Shown here one piece after another: positions 5,206 to 64,000 of a DNA stretch of 64,000 nucleotides. The notes beneath the pieces were generated by a model. That model had not been told where the DNA came from, ran no database searches, and saw nothing but the letters and a program-made list of their open reading frames with translations. The stretch comes from Phoenix dactylifera (taxonomy: Eukaryota > Streptophyta > Magnoliopsida > Arecales > Arecaceae). The stretch is taken from the NCBI RefSeq assembly GCF_009389715.1, contig NC_052400.1, forward strand, positions 3,224,001-3,288,000. Direction: 5' to 3'. Within the stretch, counting starts at the first letter, position 1, and each line of letters starts with the position of its first letter. The position numbers and the translations under genes are program-made.

Positions 5206-6881
5206 CCTATTTCATTAAATTTCTGGTGCTTGATCGTGATGCATACTACTGCAATCAAAATTGACTTGAAGAACATCAAAACACAATTCTGAAGAAAACT
5301 AAGATACCATAGCTTTCAATTATACCTTTTCCCCTAAAACACCAAACAACTGATAGCCTCGGTTGACTGATTTTGGAAAGGAAACATGGTGGAACAGAAT
5401 TTTGAAGTACTCATGTTGTATTTATTACTAAATTTTCTTTTTGACAGTTGTTGCTGTGAGATTTATCCTGAGTAGGTAACAAAAGGAACAAATTTCTCCA
5501 GATTATTGAGAATCTCTTCATTACTCTTGAATTTTTTCTTGTGCAGAACCCCTCGCTAAGTAATTATGGGGTTATCGAAGTAGGGTCACTCAAATATTAC
5601 AAATTTTGCAATATATTCATGGTTTATGCGAGCAACACTTGGGGATTTAGATTAATTTGCTATTACTTGTTGGCTGTGATGGTGATTTTACTATTCTTTT
5701 TGTTCTTGCCTCTATTACACCTATTTTTGAATGAATTAGAAATAAAAACATTGTTACTTAATTTGTAACTTTTGGCATTCATTCCAAATTTTCTGTGAAC
5801 TGTCCAAACTGTTTCCAAAGTCTGCTTATTTTTCACCTCTAGCTGAGTTGTTGCTGAACATGAACTTGCGAAATGGTTGGTATATGATGTTCTAACAATG
5901 CTCAAAGTAACATGTGTTGAAATTAGTAAAGTTGATTTTTTGGAATAGTAGATTCATGCGAGGATCATTAATATATTCATGTACTTATCCATCTTTACAT
6001 CTTCCTATAATGTCCGTGCATTTTCCTATGCAGTCTTAATTGCATGTAATTAATGTGAATGCATGTAGTAGAAGTCTCCATAAAGTCTATAGTATAAAAT
6101 ACTTTCTTTATCGGTTGTATTTGGGAACACAACCACAAGTTGATTGTTCTCCATCTTTGTACTCAGTTGCTTCAATTAATTGTTCGCTCTTATTTATCTT
6201 TGGAGTCCTTTGGGTGTTGCTTGCTTTTTTCCTTTACATTGTGGTTGGCGGTCTTGGGTTAGTGTTACTTTGGTTTTCCTACACCATGATCTTGTAAGTC
6301 CCTTGTGCAGAGAAAGATTTCCCGTTTTTAAGCTTTAGAGTTTTAACATTTCCTTGTTTAGGTGTCACATGCAGAGATTGCAATAAAAGATAAAAAAAGC
6401 TTGAATATATATCATAGGTGGCCCTACAGAGGAATTAGATCTGCAAAGCTAACCTGAATAGTTAGAATAAGGCTTGATGGTTATGGATATGTTGTAGTTT
6501 AATGTTTACCTACATCAGCTCTTTTAGTATTTCTATGTTGCAAAGATTTATTATACTCTGTAAGTAAGTAAATTTTGTATCCTTCCTAATTGTGTTCTGG
6601 CCTCTTATATATTCTGCAGAAGATGGATCAAATATACAAGATGCCTTGGCTATTATTGTAGGGAGGCGGACTGTCCCGCAAGTGTTTATCAATGGAATGC
6701 ACTTAGGTGGCTCTGATGGTAACATACTAGGGTTACCTCCAGTTTATCCTTTTCCTTCGGTGCACTACCAATAGTATTCTAATTTTATTTACCTTCTTTC
6801 TCTGTGTCAGATATCGTAGAAGCACATGAAAATGGTAGGCTTGCAAAGCTTCTTGGTATTGATGGAAGTGATGACCTCTGA
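2671..6881 (+). CDS. CPYC-type glutaredoxin, secretory pathway (GRXC3/C4-like)
   Basis: Glutathione-dependent dithiol oxidoreductase that reduces protein disulfides or glutathione mixed disulfides. Exons are 2671-2852, 4857-4930, 6620-6718 and 6811-6881, all with GT-AG introns in matching phase, giving 141 residues. The active site CPYC (residues 60-63) is split by intron 1. The family motifs TVPQ (103-106) and GGSDD (115-119) and the ending 'GRLAKLLGI' are all present. Residues 12-35 are an Ala/Phe-rich hydrophobic stretch after a basic start, consistent with a signal peptide or signal anchor as in plant GRXC3/GRXC4. The start is the first ATG in frame with this segment. The gene lies 0.77 kb upstream of the oxygenase gene on the same strand. 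Introns 1 and 2 are long and carry a MITE and a (TA)n tract. Membership in the class I CPYC group is secure. The exact orthologue is not assigned. Confidence 0.93.
4211..4404. mobile_element. MITE-like insertion in glutaredoxin intron 1
   Basis: The ends are imperfect inverted repeats: 'gaggctcgccgttcggtac' at the left against the complement of 'accgatatgacgaacctta' at the right. The interior is unusually rich in GGTAC/CGTACCG words compared with the AT-rich intron. No coding capacity and no clear target duplication were seen. Confidence 0.5.
5149..5203. repeat. (TA)n microsatellite in glutaredoxin intron 2
   Basis: About 27 uninterrupted TA units within intron 2 (4931-6619), likely to be length-polymorphic. 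Confidence 0.97.
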
Positions 6882-7619: not shown

Positions 7620-8082
7620 ATGAGCCCTTGTGAGAAAACGAGGAGGCATGGAGGAAATCCGCAGCGGCGGCGCTGGTTGCCGAAAGAGGAGGCAGAGAGC
7701 GAACAAGTCTTCCCTCGCGCCTCCTCCTCCTCCTTCTCCTCTCGACCTCTCGTCCTTCGACCGCACCGTGTTCCCCTTGCTCTTGGCTTCCGCAGCCAAC
7801 CTCCGCAACCCTCAAGCCCGATCCATTACCGAACGCTTCCTCCGCGCCCACCTTGCCCTCCTCAGAACAAGAAGGACGGCCCCTTCTTCCCTACCACCTC
7901 TTCCCCCATGCTTTCTCGCTCTCCTTCCTCTCCTCCTCACGAGCAGGTATATATACTCTCTCTTTCTCACTCACTCGCTCACTCCACGAGGATGATAATG
8001 ATAATAATAATTATACGGATCCCCTTTTGCTTTGGTTGGTAAGATGCTCTTCTGTGGCTGCGCTGAGTGCCGAGGTGGTTAG
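7620..8082 (+). promoter_or_regulatory. Upstream ORF overlapping the NO66-like start
   Basis: An ATG at 7620 in strong context (ACCACC before it, A after it) lies 28 nt upstream of the main ATG at 7648, in a different frame. Read through the spliced mRNA (7620-7946 joined to 8044), the frame runs 121 codons before stopping at 8080-8082. If the transcript starts upstream of 7620, this could reduce translation of the main protein or force leaky scanning. The transcript start is unknown. Confidence 0.45.
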
Positions 8083-44058: not shown

Positions 44059-45118
44059 ATGTCTTCCACCAGAGCTAACATGGCATCACTCGTGTTTCCT
44101 CTCTTAGCGTGCTTTCTGATAGCCAATGCCTCGGCTGGCAACTTCTACCAGGGCTTCGACATCACCTGGGGTGATGGCCGTGGCAAGATCCTTGACAATG
44201 GCCAGCTTCTAACTCTCGCCCTCGACGAAGCCTCCGGGTCCGGCTTCCAGTCCAAGAACGAGTATCTCTTTGGCAAGATCGACATGCAGCTCAAGCTTGT
44301 TCCTGGGAACTCCGCCGGCACCGTCACCGCCTACTATGTAAGCTCTCGCCACCACTGTTCGACAAAATTACTGCTTCGTACGTCCTTTTAAAATTGTATC
44401 TCTAGCGACCGATGAACCATGTACGACTTGTGCCTGAATGAACTGCAGCTGTCTTCGCAAGGGCCAACACACGATGAGATCGACTTCGAGTTCCTTGGAA
44501 ACCTCAGTGGAGAACCTTACACGCTCCACACCAATGTGTTCGCCCAGGGGAAGGGGAACAGGGAGATGCAGTTCCACCTCTGGTTCGACCCCACCGAGGA
44601 CTTCCACACCTACTCCATTCTCTGGAACCCCGGACACGTTATGTGAGTCATCATACACAAAAACTAACACCCATTCTATGTATCTCGAGCAATCTATATA
44701 TCCTCTTGCTCACCATGGTTTTATCATCCTTATCAGCTACATGGTTGATGGCATACCGATCAGAGACTTCAAGAACTTGGAGTCGAGGGGCATCGCGTTT
44801 CCAAAGAACCAACCTATGAGGATCTACTCCAGCCTCTGGAATGCTGATGACTGGGCAACCCAGGGTGGACGCATCAAGACCGACTGGACCAAAGCTCCGT
44901 TCACTGCCTCGTACAGGAATTTCAACGCCGACGCCTGCATCTGGTCCTCCGGTGCCTCCAGTTGTAATTCGCAGAAATCCGACTGGTGGAACCAAGAGCT
45001 GGATTCCACGAGCCAGGAGAGGATGAGGTGGGCGCAGGAGAACTACATGATCTACAACTACTGCACTGATCTCAAGCGGTTCCCTCAAGGCCTGCCTCTC
45101 GAGTGCTCCGTAGCCTGA
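44059..45118 (+). CDS. Xyloglucan endotransglucosylase/hydrolase A (XTH22/23-like)
   Basis: GH16 apoplastic enzyme that cuts and religates xyloglucan in the cell wall. Exons are 44059-44337, 44449-44642 and 44737-45118, giving 284 residues. The signal peptide is the hydrophobic [19 protein letters not shown], with maturation before GNFYQ. The catalytic [10 protein letters not shown] spans residues 101-110, with nucleophile Glu103 and acid/base Glu107, followed by the conserved N-glycosylation site Asn111-Leu-Ser. The C-terminal XET region has '[20 protein letters not shown]', '[10 protein letters not shown]' and the ending ECSVA. The ATG at 44,080 would also start the signal peptide, so the first seven residues are uncertain. 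It leads a three-gene tandem cluster and is the most diverged member. Transferase rather than hydrolase activity is the family norm. Confidence 0.95.
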
Positions 45119-48997: not shown

Positions 48998-51900
48998 ATG
49001 GCCTTCGTTTTCCTCCTCCTCCTAGCTTGCTCTCTGATGACCGCTGCCTCCGCTGGTAACTTGGACCAAAACTTCCAACTCACCTGGGGCGATGGGCGTG
49101 CAAAGATCCTCGAAAACGGGCAGCTCCTCACCCTCTCCCTCGACAAAGCCTCTGGCTCCGGCTTCCAGTCCAAGAACGAGTATCTCTTCGGCAAGATCGA
49201 CATGCAGCTGAAACTAGTCCCTGGGAACTCCGCCGGCACCGTCACCGCCTACTACGTAAGTCCCCTTTTATAGCCACCAGGCATCGTCTAATCCGTCCTC
49301 CTTTCTATTATGACTGGAATTTGAAGAACTAACCTGGCATCTCTGCTCGCAGCTATCATCACAAGGACCGACCCATGATGAGATCGACTTCGAGTTCCTC
49401 GGGAACCTCAGCGGAGACCCTTACACGCTCCACACCAACGTTTTCGCCCAGGGGAAGGGGAACAAAGAGATGCAGTTCCATCTCTGGTTTGATCCCACCA
49501 AGGACTTCCACACCTACTCCATCCTCTGGAACCCCCGACATATCATGTGAGTTCTCAAATCCCGCATAAGCGATGCTATCTAATACAAAATGCTGCTTCC
49601 TCTCGTACATTTGAAACTAATGTCAGGCTCGCCTTGGATTTTATTTAGGGGAAATTAATCACCCACCCTCTTTTAGACCACGCTATAACAAAAAGTCCCC
49701 GTTGACCGGTCTTAAAATTTTTCGTCCATTATCTCTATTAAGTTTAATTCCCCGTCCTTCAGCCCCTTTTGTTTTTTCAAAAAATACCGAAAATGCCCCT
49801 ACCCCTTTTGATCTCCCATTTCTAGAAGAAGAAGAAGAAGAAGAAACAGGGGCAGCCGCCACCGACCACGGTCCATCCCCGCCCGAGCTCCCTCCCGTGG
49901 CTGCCACCGGCGCCGTCTCGCTTCCTACCGAGCCCCATCCCGCGGCTCCGCCACCTCCCGTGCCCCTTCCCCTCCTAATCTTTCGATCTCAGCAGAAAAA
50001 GAAGAAGAAGAAGGCCCGGCCGCCGCCGACCATGGCGCGCCTCCGCCCGAGCTCCCTCCTGCGGCCGCGGCCGGCCCCTGCTCGCCCCCTCCTGCGGCCT
50101 CGCCCCCTCCCACGGCCCCCGTCCGAGCTCCCTCCCGCGGCCGCCGTCGGCTCCGGCTCGCCGTCGACGGCGGCCCCGCCCCCTCCAACGGCCGCCACGG
50201 CCCGGCCCCCTCCGGCGCCGCCGGCTCGCAGGAGGAGAAGAAAGAAGAAAGAAGAAGAAGGGAAGAAGAGAAGAAAAAGAAAAAAAAAAGAAAAGGAAAG
50301 AAAAAGAAAAAAAAAAGAAAAAAAATAAATAATTAAATAAATGCATAAATAAATAAATCAATAAATATAAATAAACAAATAAATAAAATAAATAAATAAA
50401 TAATATATTCTAATAAAATAAAATAATTATAAATAAATAAATAAATAAAGAAAAAGGAAGAAAAGGAAAGAAAAAGAAAAAAGAAGAAAAGGAAAGGAAA
50501 AGAAAAAAGAAAAGAAGAAAAAAAAGAAAAGAAAAGAAAAAAAAACAGAAGAAAAGGAAAGAAAAAGAAGAGAGGGAAAGAAAAAGAAAAAAAGGAAAGA
50601 AAAAAAAGAAAAGGAAAGAAGAAGAAAAAAAAGAAAGAAAAAGAAGAAAAAGAAAGAAAAGAAAAAAAGAAAAGAAAAAGGAAGAAAATGAAAGAAAAAG
50701 AAGAAAAAGGAAAGAAAGAAGAAAAAGAAAAGAAAAAGAAGAAAAGGATTATTTCTACAAAAAGCAGAAAACTCAGTTAAGTTCATCATTCTGCTCTGTG
50801 CACACAATTTATTGTTTACTGCACACAGATATGTGTCATTTGCACACACTTATTATTGTAAGCCTAGAGCATGGCACAAACTCAGTTAACCTGGAAACAT
50901 ACTTAATTAACGTTGGCACACACTAAATTTACCCCCGAACACAGTTTTGTGCTTTTTGCACACAGTTTTCTGCTTTTTTGCACACAGTTAATCGACTACT
51001 GCACACAGATATGTGCCATGTGCACACAGTTAAGTTAAGCATTCTGCTCTGTGCACACAATTACCCGAACACAGTTTTATGCTTTTTGCACAGTTTTCTG
51101 CTTTTTGCACACAGTTTATCGATTACTGCACAGAGATATGTGCCATGTGCACACAGTTAAGGTTAAGCATTCTGCTCTGTGCACACAATTTATTGTTTAC
51201 TGCACACAGATATGTGTCATTTGCACATACTTATTGTTGTAGGCCTAGAGCATGGCACCAACTCAATTAACCTGGAAACATACTTAATTAACGTTGGCAC
51301 ACACTAAATTTACCTCCGAACACAGTTTTGTGCTTTTTGCACACAGTTTTCTGCTTTTTGCACACAGTTAATCGACTACTGCACACAGATATGTGCCATG
51401 TGCACACAGTTAAGTTAAGCATTCTGCTCTGTGCACACAATTACCCGAACACAGTTTTATGCTTTTTGCACAGTTTTCTGCTTTTTGCACACAGTTTATC
51501 GATTACTGCACACAGATATGTGCCATGTGCACACAGTTAAGTTCAGCATTCTGCTCTGTGCACACAATTTATTGTTTACTGCACACAGATATGTGTCATT
51601 TGCACACACTTATTGTTGTAAGCCTAGAGCATGGCACAAACTCAATTAACCTGGAAACATACTTAATTAACGTTGGCACACACTAAATTTACCCCCGAAC
51701 ACAGTTTTGTGCTTTTTGCACACAGTTAATCGACTACTGCACACAGACATGTGCCATGTGCACACAGTTAAATTAAGCATTCTGCTCCATGCACACAATT
51801 TTCCGAACACAGTTTTATGCTTTTTGCACACAGTTTATCGATTACTGCACACAGATATGTGCCATGTGCACACAGTTAAGTTCAGTATTCTGCTCTGTGC

Positions 51901-54221
51901 ACACAATTTATTGTTTACTGCACACAGATATGTGTCATTTGCACACACTTATTGTTGTAAGCCTAGAGCATGTAACCTGGAAACATACTTAATTAACGTT
52001 GGCACACACTAAATTTACCCCCGAACACAGTTTTGTGCTTTTTGCACACAGTTAATCGACAATTTTTTTCTTTTCTTTTCTTTTTTTCTTTTTTCCTTTT
52101 CTTCTTTTTCTTTTCTTTTTTTCTTTTTCTTTCCTTTTTCCTCTTTTTCTTTCCTTTTTCTTCTTTTTTTCTTTTTCTTTCCTTCTTTTTTTTCTTTTAT
52201 TTTTCTTTTTCTTTCCTTCTCTACACACAATTAAGTCTTCTGTGCACACACTTAAATCTTCTCTCAACACAGTTAAGTATTCTATACATCACACAGTTAA
52301 GTTAAATATTCTCTATACACAATTAAGTCTTATATGCACACATTTAAATTTTCTCTGCACACAGTTAAGTGTGTGCAGAGAAGACTTAATTGTGTACAGA
52401 GAACACTTAACTATGTGATGCACACAGTTAAATGTTCTCTGTATACAATTAAGTATTCTCTGCACATACATGAATCTTCTTTTTCTTTCCTTTTCTTCTA
52501 TTTTTTTCTTTTCTTTTCTTTTCTTTTTTCTTTTTTTCTTTTTTCTTTTTCTTTTTCTTTCCTTCTCTTCTTTTTCTTTCCTTTTTCTTCTTCTTTTTTT
52601 CTTTTCTTTTTTTCTTTTTTTCCTTTTCTTCTTTTTCTTTTCTTTTTCTTCTTTTTCTTTCCTTTCTTTCCTTTTTCTTCTTTTTCTTTCCTTTTCTTCC
52701 TTTTTCTTTTCTTTTTTTCTTTTTTTCCTTTTCTTCTTTTTCTTTCCTTTTTTTCTTCTTCTTTCCTTTTCTTCTTTTTCTTTCCTTTTTTCTTTTTCTT
52801 TCCCTCTCTTCTTTCTCTTTCCTTTTTTCCCTTCTTTTTCTTTTTTTTTCTCTTCTTCCTTTCTTCTTCTTTCTTCTCCTCCCGCAGGCCGGCGCCACCG
52901 GAGGCCGGGGGAGAGGGCCCGGCCATGGCGGCCGCAGAAGGGGGCCGCAGGAGAGGGCCCGGCCGTGGCGGCTTTATTTATTTATTTATAATTATTTTAT
53001 TTTATTATAGAATATATTATTTATTTATTTATTTATTTATTTTATTTATTTTATTTGTTCATTTATATTTATTGATTTATTTATTTATGCATTTATTTAA
53101 TTATTTATTTTTTTTCTTTTTTTTCCTTCTTTTTCTTTCCTTTTCCTTTTTTTCTTTTCTTTTTCTTCTCTTCTTCCCTTCTTCTTCTTTCTTCTTTCTT
53201 CTCCTCCTGCGAGCCGGCGGCGCCGGAGGGGGCCGGGCCGTGGCGGCCGTTGGAGGGGGCGGGGCCGCCGTCGACGGCGAGCCGGGGCCGACGGCGGCCG
53301 CGGGAGGGAGCTCGGGCGGGGGCCGTGGGAGGGAGCTCGGACGGGGGCGGGCCATGGGAGGGGGCTCGGGAGGGAAGAGGCCGCGAGAGGGGGCGAGCAG
53401 GGGCCGGCGACGGCTGCAGGAGGGAGCTCGGGCAGAGGCGAGCTGTGGTCGGCGGCGGCCGGGCCTTCTTCTTCTTCTTTTTCTTCTGAGAACGGGAGAT
53501 TAGGAAGGGAAGGGGCACGGGAGGTGGCGGGGCCGCGGGATGGGGCTCGGTAGGGAGCGAGACGGCGCCGGTGGCGACCGCGGGAGGGAGCTCGGGCGGG
53601 GACGGGCCGTGGTCGGTGGCGGCTGCCCCTGTTTCTTCTTCTTCTTTTGGGAATGGGAGATCAAAAGGGGCAGGGGCATTTTAATATTCTTGGGGGCGTT
53701 TTCGTCTCATAATAAAATATTGAAATATGGCTGGACTGATCGTTAAACAACCAGTCAACAGGGATTAAATGTTAAAGACCGGTCAATAAATGTACCGGTG
53801 ATTAATTTCCCCTTTTATTTATCCCTTCAGCTTCATGGTTGATGGCATGCCAATCAGAGACTTCAAGAACATGGAGTCCAAGGGTGTTGCGTTTCCGAAG
53901 AACCAACCCATGAGGATCTACTCCAGCCTCTGGAATGCCGATGACTGGGCGACGCAGGGCGGACGCATCAAGACCGACTGGGCGAAGGCCCCCTTCACCG
54001 CCTCGTACAGGAATTTCAACGCTGATGCCTGCGTCTGGTCCTCTGGTGCCTCCAACTGCCCTTCGAAGAAATCTAACAGTGCTGGCTGGTGGAACCAGGA
54101 GCTGGACTCCACAAGCCATCAGAGGATGAGGTGGGTGCAGAAGAACTACATGATCTACAACTACTGCACCGATCAGAAGCGATTCCCCCAGGGCCTGCCT
54201 CCAGAGTGCTCCATAGCCTGA
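48998..54221 (+). CDS. Xyloglucan endotransglucosylase/hydrolase B, with a 4.2-kb intron insertion
   Basis: GH16 wall-remodelling enzyme, close paralogue of C. Exons are 48998-49255, 49353-49546 and 53831-54221, giving 280 residues. Signal peptide [19 protein letters not shown], then [15 protein letters not shown] spans residues 94-103 (Glu96, Glu100), with glycosylation site Asn104-Leu-Ser. The C-terminus ends PPECSIA. The reading frame is intact. Intron 2 is 4,284 bp, against 110 bp in C, because of one large TIR element. The frame stays open upstream to 48,671, but the ATG at 48,998 matches C and begins the signal peptide. Relative to C it differs around the loop after SSGASNC and has His in 'TSHQRMRW'. 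The TATA box seen in C is missing here and a solo LTR lies close upstream, so expression may be altered. Confidence 0.93.
50450..50753 (+). repeat. Polypurine tract (GA-rich), left side of element core
   Basis: About 300 bp of nearly pure A/G on the + strand, built of aaaag/gaaagaaaaag words. Inverted counterparts on the right are the pyrimidine tracts at 52,063-52,218 and 52,475-52,878. Confidence 0.9.
50754..52062 (+). repeat. Composite tandem array, unit ~380 bp with GCACACAG sub-repeats
   Basis: The anchor 'acc.ccgaacacagttttgtg' recurs at 50,931, 51,312, 51,691 and 52,017, giving periods of 381, 379 and 326 bp. Within each unit, shorter modules repeat: 'ctgcacacagatatgtg' followed by '..atgtgcacacagttaag', and 'cattctgctctgtgcacac'. 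The third unit has lost an internal module. Frames are open by periodicity ([14 protein letters not shown]) but I do not regard them as coding. Confidence 0.9.
52063..52218 (+). repeat. Polypyrimidine tract 1, right side of element core
   Basis: About 155 bp of almost pure C/T, complementary in orientation to the left purine tract. Confidence 0.9.
52219..52474 (+). repeat. Inverted GCACACAG modules between the pyrimidine tracts
   Basis: Short 'cacacagttaag' and 'acaattaag' modules run in both orientations here. One forms a perfect hairpin around 'cacttaactgtgtgc' with 'gcacacagttaagtg' (about 52,357-52,378). It differs from the main array in spacing and orientation. Confidence 0.7.
52475..52972 (+). 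repeat. Polypyrimidine tract 2 and GC-rich partial copy of the TIR block
   Basis: About 400 bp of C/T-rich DNA (52,475-52,878), then 52,879-52,972 repeats GC-rich text ('gccggcgcc', 'gagagggcccggcc', 'gtggcggc') that also occurs at 53,205-53,245 in the right arm. The right arm's inner edge has thus been partly duplicated. Confidence 0.75.
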
Positions 54222-56689
54222 AGAGAACAGAGATCGCAGAACATGGAAACAAATTCTTTTATTCGTTAGTTCTTGTGTAGGATACTAGGACGGATTCCTT
54301 ATCATCATTCATGTTAATGGACACGGAACACTATATATGTTGTTATATTCTCCATGCCAAATGATACCATGCATATATTAAGAGAAGCACGTACGGGGGT
54401 GAGTTTTCTCTAGCCGTTCAGCTGAACTAACTTGCCTTCAGACGAATGCATGTTCTTCGCTCATGTATTATATTCTGAGTATATGCGATGCAAGTATGGT
54501 AATACATAACCTGATTTCAGAAATCTCTCTCTCTCTCTAGTTGAAAGTGCCATCTAATTCTGAGGCATATCGTCCCAGTGCGCGAAAAGTACTAAAAGAA
54601 AAAAGCATTATTAAATTTAGCATTTAAAGGAAAGACCGCAGGCGTAAGTTACATCTTCAACTTAATTATGATTCAAGTCAGCTGAATTCTTGAGAGAGGA
54701 ATAGTCTCAGCAGGCGGGACGGATGTTCATTGAAGGTGCCTGTTTTCGAGGCAGCGAGACCTATCTGTCTTGCCTCCACCTGGGCTTGGGTAATTCGCTC
54801 CAGATCAGCCATCCCTCCTTTAATCCCAAAGGAAGACTGAGGCTTGTGTTCTAAGCCTTTGTCTTGCTATATCTTGGTTTATGAGTGCAAAATTCAAATT
54901 TTAGTTACATTAACCCATCGAAATTCTAAACTAAAAGAGATTCTCGCATCCTGTGCAAAAATTCACAGAATATCGTGAAAAATTAAAGATAAATTTGAGC
55001 TTCAACAGGTGAGAATGCAGTCATGAAGACATTTATTCTATGTTAGTGTCTGAGCCGATGTCGACAATGTTGGTCTAATTTAGATCAACCATATTTTGTT
55101 TTATGTAGCTACACTTTCGTCCTACATATAATCCATGCAGAAATAGTCTAAATCTAAACGTGACAGCTAGTCTAAATCTAAACGTCTGACTTGATCTACG
55201 AATGATCCATTTTAAGCAGGTTCAGGTTTAACATAAATATATCAATTCATAAATAAATGGGTTAGGTTCCGGTTTAGACTTTTAAACTATTTAACCCGCT
55301 TTGCTCTGTTTAATAATTGAGTTAGACTCTAATCTGACCTATTTAACCCATTTTAAATCTACCTAGTTAAAACCTATTTAACATGTTTTTGTCTTATTTA
55401 ACCTGGCCCGTTTAACCTGTTTAATCTATTTAAATCAATTTAATTCATTAAAAATCTACTTAATCTATGTAGCCCGTTTAACCTGACTTGACCTATTTAA
55501 TAAATAGGTTATGTAGATCGGCTCAAGTTACCTTTTTAATAAAAAGATTGGGTTTAGATATAAATTTTTGACCTGTTTAATAAACAGGTAGGATTTGGGT
55601 TAACGAATTTTTGATTCAACCCAACCAATATCCGATCCGACGTAATTGCCACCCCTATCTAAATCTTTATTAGACGCCTATATTCTTGGTTGTTATGCAA
55701 TTTTGCCCATTGTAACCATGTTAAAGTAAAGTAGAACAACAAATGAATTTTTACTAGTTATATAAACTTATATTTTTTTTTGAGGTATAAAAACTCAAGT
55801 TTTTAGCCCTAAGATTTGGTCTGCATTGTGATGTGATATTCATAGTAACGATCAAAAAGTTCCATTATAAGTGAAGGACAGTAGATGATTAATAAAAATT
55901 ATCGAAATAATCTCATTATTTAGTATTACCCTTGCCCTGGTGCTTAAGCCGAGAGGATATTAAATATGACCAAAAAATGATCTACATCACGAACAGAGTA
56001 TTACACTTTATAGTAGAATAACATCCCACACTGATAGTTGTTTACACCACATCCAAACTAACAGGCAAGAGCAATAGATCAATGGTTGCAAGCCTTGTGA
56101 CGTCTCCAGAGATAGGCTAGGAAGTGGCAACTCTAAGGGAAGATGAGAACATCGAAATAATGAGATCTCATCTCAATATCTCATATGGAAGATGGACTGT
56201 ATATGAAGATGAGGGACAGCCCAAGCATTAACAATGGGGACCAAGTGCAGACCTAGAACCAGACGGCAGGCTGAGCATAGATTGAGTGCTAGGGTGCAGA
56301 TCGAGCATACACTCAATAGCAGGTGGCAAAACAAGTTGAGTGCCTGAGAGCGACCAAGCATAGACCCGATATTAAACTGCAGATCGAGCTAGATTGCTAG
56401 GATGCAAACCGAGCATATATGGAACAAATCCCGTGGTACAACCTGAGTATAAACCGAATATCAAGAGGAGAAACAATCTCCAAAGGACTATCAAGCAACA
56501 AACTGAGGGGATGAGAGTTATCTATCTTGAGCAAGAGGTATTCCAATGGAGCAAAGTCCAAGTAGCCTATGAACAGTTACCAAGACCAAGAACGTGTAGT
56601 GATTAATAATGCTCATATAGTGGAAGAGATGGCAACTATCACGAACGATGGTGGTGGCAATATGGCGTGAACTAGCGAGAACGGACTTA
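54222..56689. other. XTH-B 3' flank with decayed repeats
   Basis: The probable 3' UTR lies in the first ~200 bp. At about 55,200-55,665 there is a repeat rich in tttaacc/cctgttta words ending 'ttgccacccct', the style of a degraded MITE. At 56,040-56,690 there is LTR-like text (repeated 'gagcatagat', 'cagatcgagc' words). No gene. Confidence 0.5.
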
Positions 56690-59073: not shown

Positions 59074-60138
59074 ATGGCCTTCGTTTTCCTCCTCCTCCTA
59101 GCTTGCTCTTTCATGACCGCCGCCTCCGCTGGTAACTTGGACCAAAACTTCCAAATCACCTGGGGCGATGGGCGTGCAAAGATCATCGAAAACGGGCAGC
59201 TCCTCACCCTCTCCCTCGACAAAGCCTCTGGCTCCGGCTTCCAGTCCAAGAACGAGTATCTCTTCGGCAAGATCGACATGCAGCTGAAACTAGTCCCTGG
59301 GAACTCCGCCGGCACCGTCACCGCCTATTACGTAAGTCCCCTTTTACAGCCACCTGCAGGCATCGTCTAATCCGTCCTCCTTTGTATTATGACCGGAATT
59401 TGAAGAACTAACCAGGCATCTCTGCTCGCAGCTATCATCACAAGGACCGACCCATGATGAGATTGACTTCGAGTTCCTCGGGAACCTCAGCGGAGACCCT
59501 TACACGCTCCACACCAACGTCTTCGCCCAGGGGAAGGGGAACAAAGAGATGCAGTTCCATCTCTGGTTTGATCCCACCAAGGACTTCCACACCTACTCCA
59601 TCCTCTGGAACCCCAGACATATCATGTGAGTTCTCAAATCCCGCATAAGCGATGCTATCTAATACAAAATGCTGCTTCCTCTCGTACATTTGAAACTAAT
59701 GTCAGGCTCGCCTTGGATTTTATTTATCCCTTCAGCTTCATGGTTGATGGCATGCCAATCAGAGACTTCAAGAATATGGAGTCCAAGGGTGTTGCGTTTC
59801 CGAAGAACCAACCCATGAGGATCTACTCCAGCCTCTGGAATGCCGATGACTGGGCGACGCAGGGCGGACGCATCAAGACCGACTGGGCGAAGGCCCCCTT
59901 CACCGCCTCGTACCGGAATTTCAACGCTGATGCCTGCGTCTGGTCCTCTGGTAACTCCAACTGCCCTTCGAAGAAAGCTGGTACTGCTTCGGCCAGCAGC
60001 GACTGGTGGAATCAGGAGCTGGATTCCACGAGCCAAGGAAGGATGAGATGGGTGCAGAGAAACTATATGATCTACAACTACTGCACTGACCTCAAGCGAT
60101 TCCCTCAGGGCCTACCTCCGGAGTGCTCCATTGCCTGA
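59074..60138 (+). CDS. Xyloglucan endotransglucosylase/hydrolase C (XTH22/23-like)
   Basis: GH16 apoplastic xyloglucan transferase. Exons are 59074-59331, 59432-59625 and 59736-60138, giving 284 residues. Signal peptide [19 protein letters not shown], then [21 protein letters not shown] spans residues 94-103 (Glu96 nucleophile, Glu100 acid/base), then Asn104-Leu-Ser. The C-terminal region has '[20 protein letters not shown]', a few residues longer than B, and ends PPECSIA. The compact 100- and 110-bp introns are the ancestral state of the B/C pair. Exons, introns 1-2 and about 500 bp upstream are nearly identical to B, showing recent tandem duplication. A TATA box is present. Confidence 0.95.
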
Positions 60139-60614
60139 AAGAGAAGTGGAAAGTAGAGAACAATCACACCCATTCTTTCATTCATTTGTTCTTTATTGTC
60201 GCTTCAGTCTATAAATGGAGAGGAGTATGTAGTTCCTCCATGTAAAGTGATGCCACGAATTTAAACGACAGAACCACGCAGAGTTTTCTTTATCATCCAG
60301 AAGAAACTGAGCTGCTTCTTTCCATAAGGATGCATATTTTGTACGGGAGTTAATTCGACTTGAAAGTCAGATAACAAGTTCCTAGTATTTGCGATACGGA
60401 GGAACACATAATGGATTAATCAAATGCATTTTCTCATAAGTTGAATTTGCCATCTAATCCTTCATCATACGTGTCCCAGTATGCAGACTATACTATATAA
60501 AAAAAATGCAACAAAATTCTAAATGTTTATAGCAGATTGGTTTTAAAAAAAATATCGGACAGTACTATACAAGTAACCATGTCAAAATAATCTCAATACG
60601 TAAAATAGAAATAG

Positions 60615-63169: not shown

Positions 63170-64000
63170 AAAATGTGCCTCGAAACTCGAAACGACTGCA
63201 AATTGAATTCGGCTCAAGTTTGCTTGAAAAAGTCTGTGCCAACTGAATGGAGTCGACTCCTGCAGAGCTGGAGTCGACTCCTATGAAGCTTGAGTCGACC
63301 CCAGGGATGAGAGGGTCGACTCGCATCTGCCACAGTGAAGAAACAGAGAGCAGTTTTCTGGGTTGCTTGCAGGAGTCGACTCCAGTCCTGCAGGAGTCGA
63401 CTCCAGCTTTGCAGGAGTCGACTCCAGTCATGCAGGAGTCGACTCCAGTCATGCAGGAGTCGACTCCAGCTTTGCAGGAGTCGACTCCAGTCCTGCAGGA
63501 GTCGACTCCAGCTCTGCAGGAGTCGACTCTCTCAGAAAGACAGAACGTGCCAGTTTCGGTGCTGATACTTGGAGTCGACCCGAGGATGTCCGAGTCGACT
63601 CGAACTTATCAGGAGTCGACCCCTGAAAGTGAAGAGTCGACTCCTGATCACGGGATTGATTGAAACGATGGCAAGATGGGTTTTTTGACTTAGGGTTTTT
63701 CGTAGGGAAGTTTCCTTATGTGTTGAAAACCTATAAATAGGGTTTTTTGGTGAACCCTAGGTGAGATGAGAGCGGCTGTAGTGAGTTTCTTTTGGAGTCC
63801 TATCTCTCTTGTAAGCCCTAGGTGTGCAATCTCCAACAGGAAGAGAGATCATTGTAACCCTTGCTGAATATATTGAAATCTGTGTGTGTGGCCTCCGTGG
63901 ACGTAACCCGTATTGGGTGAACCACGTAAAATTATTGTCTTTGCAAAAGATTTGATTTTATTCTCTACTACTTCTTCTTCTCGATTCGTCTTTCCGCAGT
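63170..64000 (+). mobile_element. Partial LTR (Ty1-copia style), runs off the window
   Basis: Downstream of a minisatellite lie a TATA-like 'ctataaatagggtttt' (63,729-63,745), then 'gtggcctccgtggacgtaac' and 'tgaaccacgtaaaatt', text typical of the R/U5 part of plant copia LTRs. The left edge is placed near 63,170 ('aatgtgcctcg') by weak evidence. The right end is beyond the window. Confidence 0.6.
63247..63660 (+). repeat. GAGTCGACTCC minisatellite, ~21-bp unit
   Basis: The palindromic core GGAGTCGACTCC, containing a GTCGAC site, repeats about 15 times. The central eight units (63,373-63,528) are regularly spaced at ~21 bp with 'agtcctgca', 'agctttgca' or 'agtcatgca' linkers. All three + frames stay open through the array because of the 21-bp period. 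Confidence 0.9.

Follow-up and report, generated by a model that had tools for sequence, protein, structure and literature searches.

A probable young non-autonomous Mutator-like element in a date palm XTH intron, and the core array it shares with a transposase-bearing relative

The window considered here, a stretch of 64,000 nucleotides from Phoenix dactylifera (NCBI RefSeq assembly GCF_009389715.1, contig NC_052400.1, positions 3,224,001 to 3,288,000 of the forward strand), contains two paralogous genes, XTH-B and XTH-C, of which the first carries in its second intron a 4.2-kb insert that the second does not have. The locus raises the questions of what this insert is, when it arrived and which enzyme could have moved it. 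The reading that we favour, with a probability of roughly 0.85, is that the insert is a young non-autonomous Mutator-like element (MULE), moved in trans by the transposase of a larger family in the same genome, termed ULP-MULE here, and that a tandem array in its core was gained from that family by sequence exchange. The ends of the insert, the size of its target site duplication, its target bias, its family of copies, its youth, the shared array and the existence of a relative whose identical 16-bp ends enclose a transposase gene are directly supported, and from these we infer that the ULP-MULE transposase mobilises the 4.2-kb element. A young insertion, its empty site, sister copies and a probable helper are thereby found in a single genome. 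The insert is ordinary in kind; what is out of the ordinary is the shared phased array that tracks the young copies.

The insert in XTH-B

Exon limits of XTH-B were set by eye, and Pfam matches to Glyco_hydro_16 fall in exons 2 and 3 and a match to XET_C in exon 3. The sequence-only reading of this DNA had described identical 9-bp flanks, a perfect 16-bp terminal inverted repeat and inverted arms of about 800 bp. Two copies of TTTTATTTA do border the insert (Table 1), their length being unambiguous as the adjoining base differs on both sides, and the perfect 16-bp repeat was recovered at both ends. The description of the arms holds for their inner parts, which are complementary in 603 of the 630 columns without gaps (95.7%; 696 columns when gapped ones are counted), but not for the roughly 140 bp between the ends and the inner arms, which are only loosely alike, and the arms are not uniform. 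The GC-rich arm consists partly of a 76-bp minisatellite. Long terminal inverted repeats with ends of the GGG...CCC type, a trait of MULEs, are present. A Pfam scan of one frame from the left part of the insert, which might have revealed a captured host gene fragment of the Pack-MULE kind, returned no families; within that scan neither a MuDR transposase nor a ULP1 gene was found in the insert, whose longer open frames read as low complexity. The stretch of pyrimidine tracts and spacer was found to be shared with older relatives through matches from element position 2418 onward.

Table 1. Features of the insert, its host gene, the empty site and the transposase-bearing relative; positions are those of the window unless a contig is named
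Feature	Position	Strand	Remark
Host gene XTH-B (xyloglucan endotransglucosylase/hydrolase)	48998-54221	+	insert in intron 2
Left 9-bp target site duplication TTTTATTTA	49639-49647	.	
Non-autonomous MULE (probable)	49648-53812	+	4,165 bp
Left terminal inverted repeat GGGGAAATTAATCACC	49648-49663	+	first 16 bp identical in the 12-kb MULE
Left inner arm	49790-50425	+	GC-rich minisatellite, purine tract, (TAAA)n
Core tandem array	50748-52065	+	380-bp repeat built on TGCACACA
Pyrimidine tracts and spacer	52066-52885	+	common to older relatives without the array
Right inner arm	52993-53682	-	counterpart of left arm
Right terminal inverted repeat	53797-53812	-	contains TTAAT
Right 9-bp target site duplication TTTTATTTA	53813-53821	.	
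Unoccupied target site, intron 2 of XTH-C (paralogue)	59718-59726	.	one TTTTATTTA, no insert
Transposase-bearing MULE	C14:9339350-9351388 (L041, L042)		12,039 bp; duplication TATTTTATA

The right end of the insert lies 18 bp upstream of exon 3 of XTH-B, where the acceptor ends at 53830. In XTH-C the motif CTAAT is found 36 nt upstream of the acceptor, and its counterpart in XTH-B is now more than 4 kb away. The insert's own end contains TTAAT 25 nt upstream of the 3' splice site of XTH-B, followed by a pyrimidine-rich stretch, and this TTAAT is a possible branch point for intron 2. Insertion so close to the exon may therefore have supplied a replacement for both the displaced branch point and the pyrimidine tract, in which case XTH-B may still be spliced. 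With the insert, the host pre-mRNA also gains 636 bp of inverted arm that match at 95.7%. By analogy with other long MULE inverted repeats, for which production of siRNA is reported in parts of the literature (passages of PMC6446971 and PMC10398659), the transcribed arms could fold as a hairpin and become a source of siRNA against the family.

Sister copies and the empty site in XTH-C

The genome assembly (773,078,369 bp in 2,391 contigs) was searched with a 351-bp query from the left end (49640-49990), which gave at least 103 matches with 40 of 245 candidates scored, and with the end pattern GGGGWAATTAATCACC, which occurs 72 times as compared to 0 times for a reversed control. The sequence-only reading had proposed looking for further copies with 9-bp duplications, and such copies exist: 32 loci around copies were retrieved for reading, and a perfect duplication flanks 11 of the 18 copies with two ends, the window copy included (the others being L011, L012, L014, L016, L017, L018, L023, L025, L027 and L028). 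Duplications with one mismatch were seen in L026 and L029, with two in L032 and with three in L021; both ends are present in L013, L015 and L039, with no recognisable duplication. A further outer copy on contig C3 is flanked by TATTTTTTT, and when this and three large copies described below are added, the count of perfect 9-bp duplications becomes 15 of 22. This is the length typical for MULEs, whose duplications are given as 8-11 bp in the available text of PMC6446971. The target bias is strong, 131 of the 135 bases in the 15 perfect duplications being A or T; 12 of the 15 are made of A/T entirely, compared with 2.7% of 9-mers across the rest of the window. Chance and assembly artefact were both rejected as the origin of the structure, as it is found again at loci whose flanks and 9-bp duplications differ and as its end pattern returned 72 occurrences against none for the control.

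Eleven array-bearing copies with two ends, the window copy among them, were aligned over their full length and are 98.3-99.4% identical in pairwise comparison. Differences private to the window copy, relative to its ten sisters, number 19 over 3,601 gap-free columns (0.53%). Taking plant substitution rates as 2.6e-9 to 6.5e-9 per site per year would place the age of the XTH-B insert at roughly 0.8-2 million years. Together the insert and its ten sisters have the sequence characteristics of a young non-autonomous Mutator-like element.

XTH-C, which starts at 59074, provides a second view of this age. Its intron 2 had been said to be free of the insert, and the alignment bears this out, as it contains a single TTTTATTTA and is identical to the 109 bp of XTH-B intron 2 outside the insert (0/109 differences). 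In a side comparison of window positions 48998-54522 with 59074-60439, divergence between the two genes was found to be patchy, viz. 13/550 (2.4%) from the start to exon 2, 0% in intron 2, 25/390 (6.4%) in exon 3 and 59/248 (23.8%) just past exon 3. This unevenness suggests gene conversion, and the insertion would therefore be younger than the last exchange of intron 2; the earlier claim that it followed the B/C duplication is kept as a bound, albeit a loose one given the patchy divergence. The contrast between intron 2 and exon 3 could also be taken to favour the reverse order, i.e. an insertion that predates the duplication and was lost from XTH-C by gene conversion or precise excision. We consider this quite improbable, since the XTH-C site is clean, with one copy of the duplication, and the private differences of the insert amount to less than the 2.4-6.4% that separates the exon regions of the two genes. 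Near 44737 there is a third XTH-like exon 3; its intron end differs, and it sheds no light on the insertion.

Some of the loci have a more complex layout. In L009 (7839/8627) and L010 (1230/2020) two left ends point the same way at a distance of 788-790 bp, which suggests that one copy inserted into the A/T-rich arm of another; this arrangement is found on both C1324 and C3, perhaps as one locus assembled twice. At 5597-5637 of L040 a complete right end is followed by 6 bp (AAAATA) and by a left end whose identity extends over 34 bp and is then lost, a truncated second end next to a full copy.

A transposase-bearing relative and its described counterparts

A relative encoding a MURA-type transposase had been named by the sequence-only reading as something to look for, and one was found on contig C14 (Table 1). 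Its 16-bp ends are identical to those of the XTH-B insert and it has perfect inverted repeats of 85 bp. The gene on its minus strand encodes a MuDR transposase, with Pfam matches to MULE (4.6e-18), DBD_Tnp_Mut (1.4e-16) and SWIM (1.6e-5) (accessions PF10551 and PF03108 among them), in two exons joined in one frame. Opposite to it, on the plus strand, lies an uninterrupted gene model for a ULP1 protease of 811 aa in 11 exons, whose limits were set by hand and whose 10 introns are all GT-AG. This model matches Peptidase_C48 (PF02902, 4.3e-12) and the Plant mobile domain (1.2e-8, just at the cut-off), and it matches DUF1985 at E 4.2e-6 with 27.2 bits, below the curated cut-off of 35.1 bits. The best match of its 113-aa C48 piece among solved structures is yeast Ulp1 (1euv, 6.1e-5), with the HW, D and DCG positions aligned, which we take to be catalytic. 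Two more large copies are known, one on C105 (673417-687671; L043, L044), of 14,255 bp and flanked by TTAAATTTT, and one on C13, of 14,088 bp and flanked by TACAATAAA; both have the left end of the C14 element and a right end with one base changed. Read at full length, the transposase frame is free of stops in C14 and C105, with a single stop in C13.

Two observations on these large copies may be added. By eye, the C105 copy appears nested in an element of the arm and array type, its flanks resembling the core spacer and the GC-rich arm of the 4.2-kb element. The C14 element also contains, on the minus strand at 50-1576 of L042, an open frame of 508 aa with a match (1.5e-21) to PF20167, 'putative plant transposon protein'; it could be a third gene or a nested element.

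The earlier assignment of the insert to Mutator-like elements with foldback arms is upheld by the 9-bp duplications elsewhere in the genome and by the MuDR transposase in a relative with the same ends. Foldback elements arise in several superfamilies (according to the portion of PMC3169594 available), and long arms of simple sequence are difficult to assemble, so one may ask whether the insert belongs to another superfamily or whether its inverted arms are an assembly error; with the same arms at many loci that differ in flanks and duplications, and with a MuDR transposase encoded between the same ends, we find this scarcely credible.

As we envisage it, a MuDR-type transposase from the ULP-MULE family would recognise the ends that the two elements share, excise the 4.2-kb element and reinsert it at A/T-rich sites, the 9-bp stagger giving rise to the duplication. 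The element itself would be composite, with terminal 16 bp like those of the ULP-MULE, GC-rich inverted arms from a lineage of its own, and a 1.3-kb core array shared with those ULP-MULE copies whose full-length transposase frame is still open; the array would have been gained through exchange with that lineage, after which the element spread. Against shared mobilisation, the similarity between the ends of the insert and of the ULP-MULE past the 16 bp is only 79% over 61 bp.

The available parts of the literature on described MULEs contain several counterparts to both elements. Genes of the mudrA and ULP1-like types in opposite orientation have been described for KI-MULEs (PMC2528002, PMC13317346, both in part), and the C14 element resembles such ULP1-carrying MULEs (Kaonashi/KI-MULE of Arabidopsis, and those of melon, rice and grapevine) in having a MuDR gene and a ULP1-like gene on opposite strands. 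The Arabidopsis KI-MULE is described as being without terminal inverted repeats, unlike the C14 element with its 85-bp perfect ones, and ULP genes are reported in MULEs with terminal inverted repeats from melon and grapevine (context given in PMC2528002). Abermu MULEs of barley and other plants, as portrayed in sections of PMC9168764, share with our elements the GGG...CCC ends, the 9-bp duplications and the TA-rich targets, and share with the C14 element an extra gene in opposite orientation; they differ in being 8.2 kb long, likely autonomous and bounded by inverted repeats of 138-145 bp. The terms 'ulp' and 'tandem repeat' are absent from the text of that article. MuTAnT of Medicago, in the accessible passages of PMC4486113, is like the insert in its foldback arms, GGGG/CCCC ends, 9-nt duplications and A/T-rich targets, and is unlike it in a size of mostly 200-300 bp and in targeting TA microsatellites. 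The Arabidopsis foldback MULE FARE, known here through portions of papers that cite it, is grouped with MuTAnT as similar to the insert.

These comparisons also bear on the termini. The sequence-only reading had remarked that they were no Mu terminus it could recognise; this does not make them strange, since GGGG/GGG ends occur in other plant MULEs, and the argument from 'unrecognised' to 'strange' was rejected on the strength of the GGGG/CCCC and GGG...CCC ends in MuTAnT and Abermu (sections of PMC4486113 and PMC9168764). DPTEdb gives MULE counts for each dioecious plant, date palm being named, and this element is not described in the available part of its article (PMC4865326).

The core array and its distribution

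The phased tandem array in the core of the insert had gone unremarked in the sequence-only reading. The motif TGCACACA occurs 38 times forward and once in reverse in the insert, 15 and 2 times in the C14 element, and twice in the remaining 59.8 kb of the window. Its steps within the insert are of 21 bp (19 times) and 31 bp (5 times), plus others. The peak of phase strength lies at 10.6 bp, with values of 0.62 in the window (n=34) and 0.84 in C14 (n=15), as compared to 0.40 and 0.50, respectively, at exactly 10.5 bp.

The insert's array is 92-93% identical to that of C14 over 434-448 bp. Young copies, defined by at most one mismatch to the window copy in the first 32 bp (window, L009-L016, L025-L028 and L040; n=14), have the array in 14 of 14 cases, or 13 of 13 without the window, which was the source of the query; the sequence retrieved for L009 is incomplete (88% coverage), and L009 has the same configuration as L010, so that the two may be a single locus counted twice. 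Among seven complete older copies that share the arms, four (L017, L018, L029 and L032) gave no array match at E 1e-10 and contain scattered TGCACACA motifs (17, 5, 14 and 9, respectively), and three (L021, L023 and L039) gave weak matches of 66-73% identity. Of 12 other older loci, whose two ends are unpaired, 11 gave no array match and L038 gave a weak one (66-73%). On the side of the larger family, array and transposase lie within 25 kb of each other on at least 11 contigs among the matches listed (C14, C105, C13, C82, C6, C581, C18, C509, C985, C236 and C59).

Deletion derivatives are a usual source of non-autonomous elements, and the ends and array that the insert has in common with the C14, C105 and C13 copies would fit an internal-deletion derivative of the ULP-MULE that lost its genes with no exchange of sequence. 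Three observations make such a plain derivative disfavoured, and in our view unlikely: the array of the insert is closer to that of C14 than are its outer ends, which are alike at 79% over 61 bp only; C6 and C82 have the reverse pattern relative to C14, with outer 77 bp of 94-95% identity and arrays of 75-80%; and the four arm-sharing relatives named above are without an array match. Entry of the array into the 4.2-kb lineage by exchange with the ULP-MULE, before the element spread, is the account that, on present sequence comparisons, fits best. It is also possible that the array was lost from the older relatives and not gained by the young ones, because of the scattered motifs and weak 66-73% matches in older copies and of array-like stretches elsewhere. 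The latter accompany right-end matches on C33, C1640, C112, C15 (at 4.23 Mb), C254 and C126, are 77-82% identical to part of the C14 array, and perhaps mark further non-autonomous families with arrays of their own.

An expectation that the array changes unusually fast was not upheld. Relative to C14, the transposase DNA of the copies on C82, C6, C59, C18 and C509 is 97-99% identical, and their long array matches are 71-80% identical, with short pieces of 150-173 bp at 85-89%; the non-coding right-end pieces of the same five copies, used as a control, are also variable, at 77-97%, and such pieces span 72-97% over the large copies.

Whether the array does anything is the least certain part of the account. 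We lean slightly towards its being a neutral minisatellite, i.e. a passenger with no function: slippage creates and spreads tandem arrays, a 21-bp founding unit alone would yield many 21-bp steps, and the right-end pieces just mentioned vary as well. Three observations pull the other way. Eleven of 15 distinct spacings, half-multiples of 21 included, fall no more than 1 bp from a multiple of 10.55 (chance 0.195; binomial p ~1e-5), in a test that was picked after the spacings had been seen and that takes as independent spacings which depend on tandem duplication. In three overlapping alignments, motif columns differ less than spacer columns, at 5.8 versus 9.1%, 2.7 versus 8.7% and 10.9 versus 23.9% (p 0.33, 0.03 and 0.001, in that order). 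The array has also been retained by every young copy examined.

If it has a role, the array may, by comparison with Arabidopsis VANDAL elements and their VANC proteins, dock an anti-silencing protein. VANC contains DUF1985, binds tandem short non-coding motifs and induces loss of methylation (PMC5735166 and PMC10398659, in the parts available), and the ULP-MULE group resembles this system in combining non-coding arrays of short tandem motifs with an encoded protein that may be DUF1985-like. It differs in its motif, in the C48 domain that the C14 protein has in addition, in a DUF1985 match that stays below the cut-off, and in its intact inverted repeats (85 bp and perfect in C14), those of VANDALs being degenerate or absent (excerpts of PMC10398659 and PMC6446971). 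Because of this last difference the ULP-MULE pair of array and protein would be at most VANC-like, and not VANDAL. We offer only tentatively, and with the odds against it, the fuller proposal that non-autonomous MULEs took the helically phased array from the ULP-MULE, that the array docks the protein with DUF1985, Plant mobile and ULP1 domains, and that silencing was so lifted in trans, leading to a burst of the 4.2-kb element. If true, this would be VANC-like anti-silencing outside VANDAL, in elements with intact inverted repeats, and used by an element that lacks the genes in question. Were the array indeed a protein target, anti-silencing would reach past the VANDALs, and elements devoid of such genes could gain it by acquiring an array.

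A second array lies at the right edge of the window (63250-63636), where GAGTCGACTC recurs largely in 21-bp steps (63373 to 63520). It may be a further motif array of the same kind as that built on TGCACACA, and GTCGACTC is found again in the C14 ULP-MULE, at positions 5354-5865 and 7676-8052 of that element.
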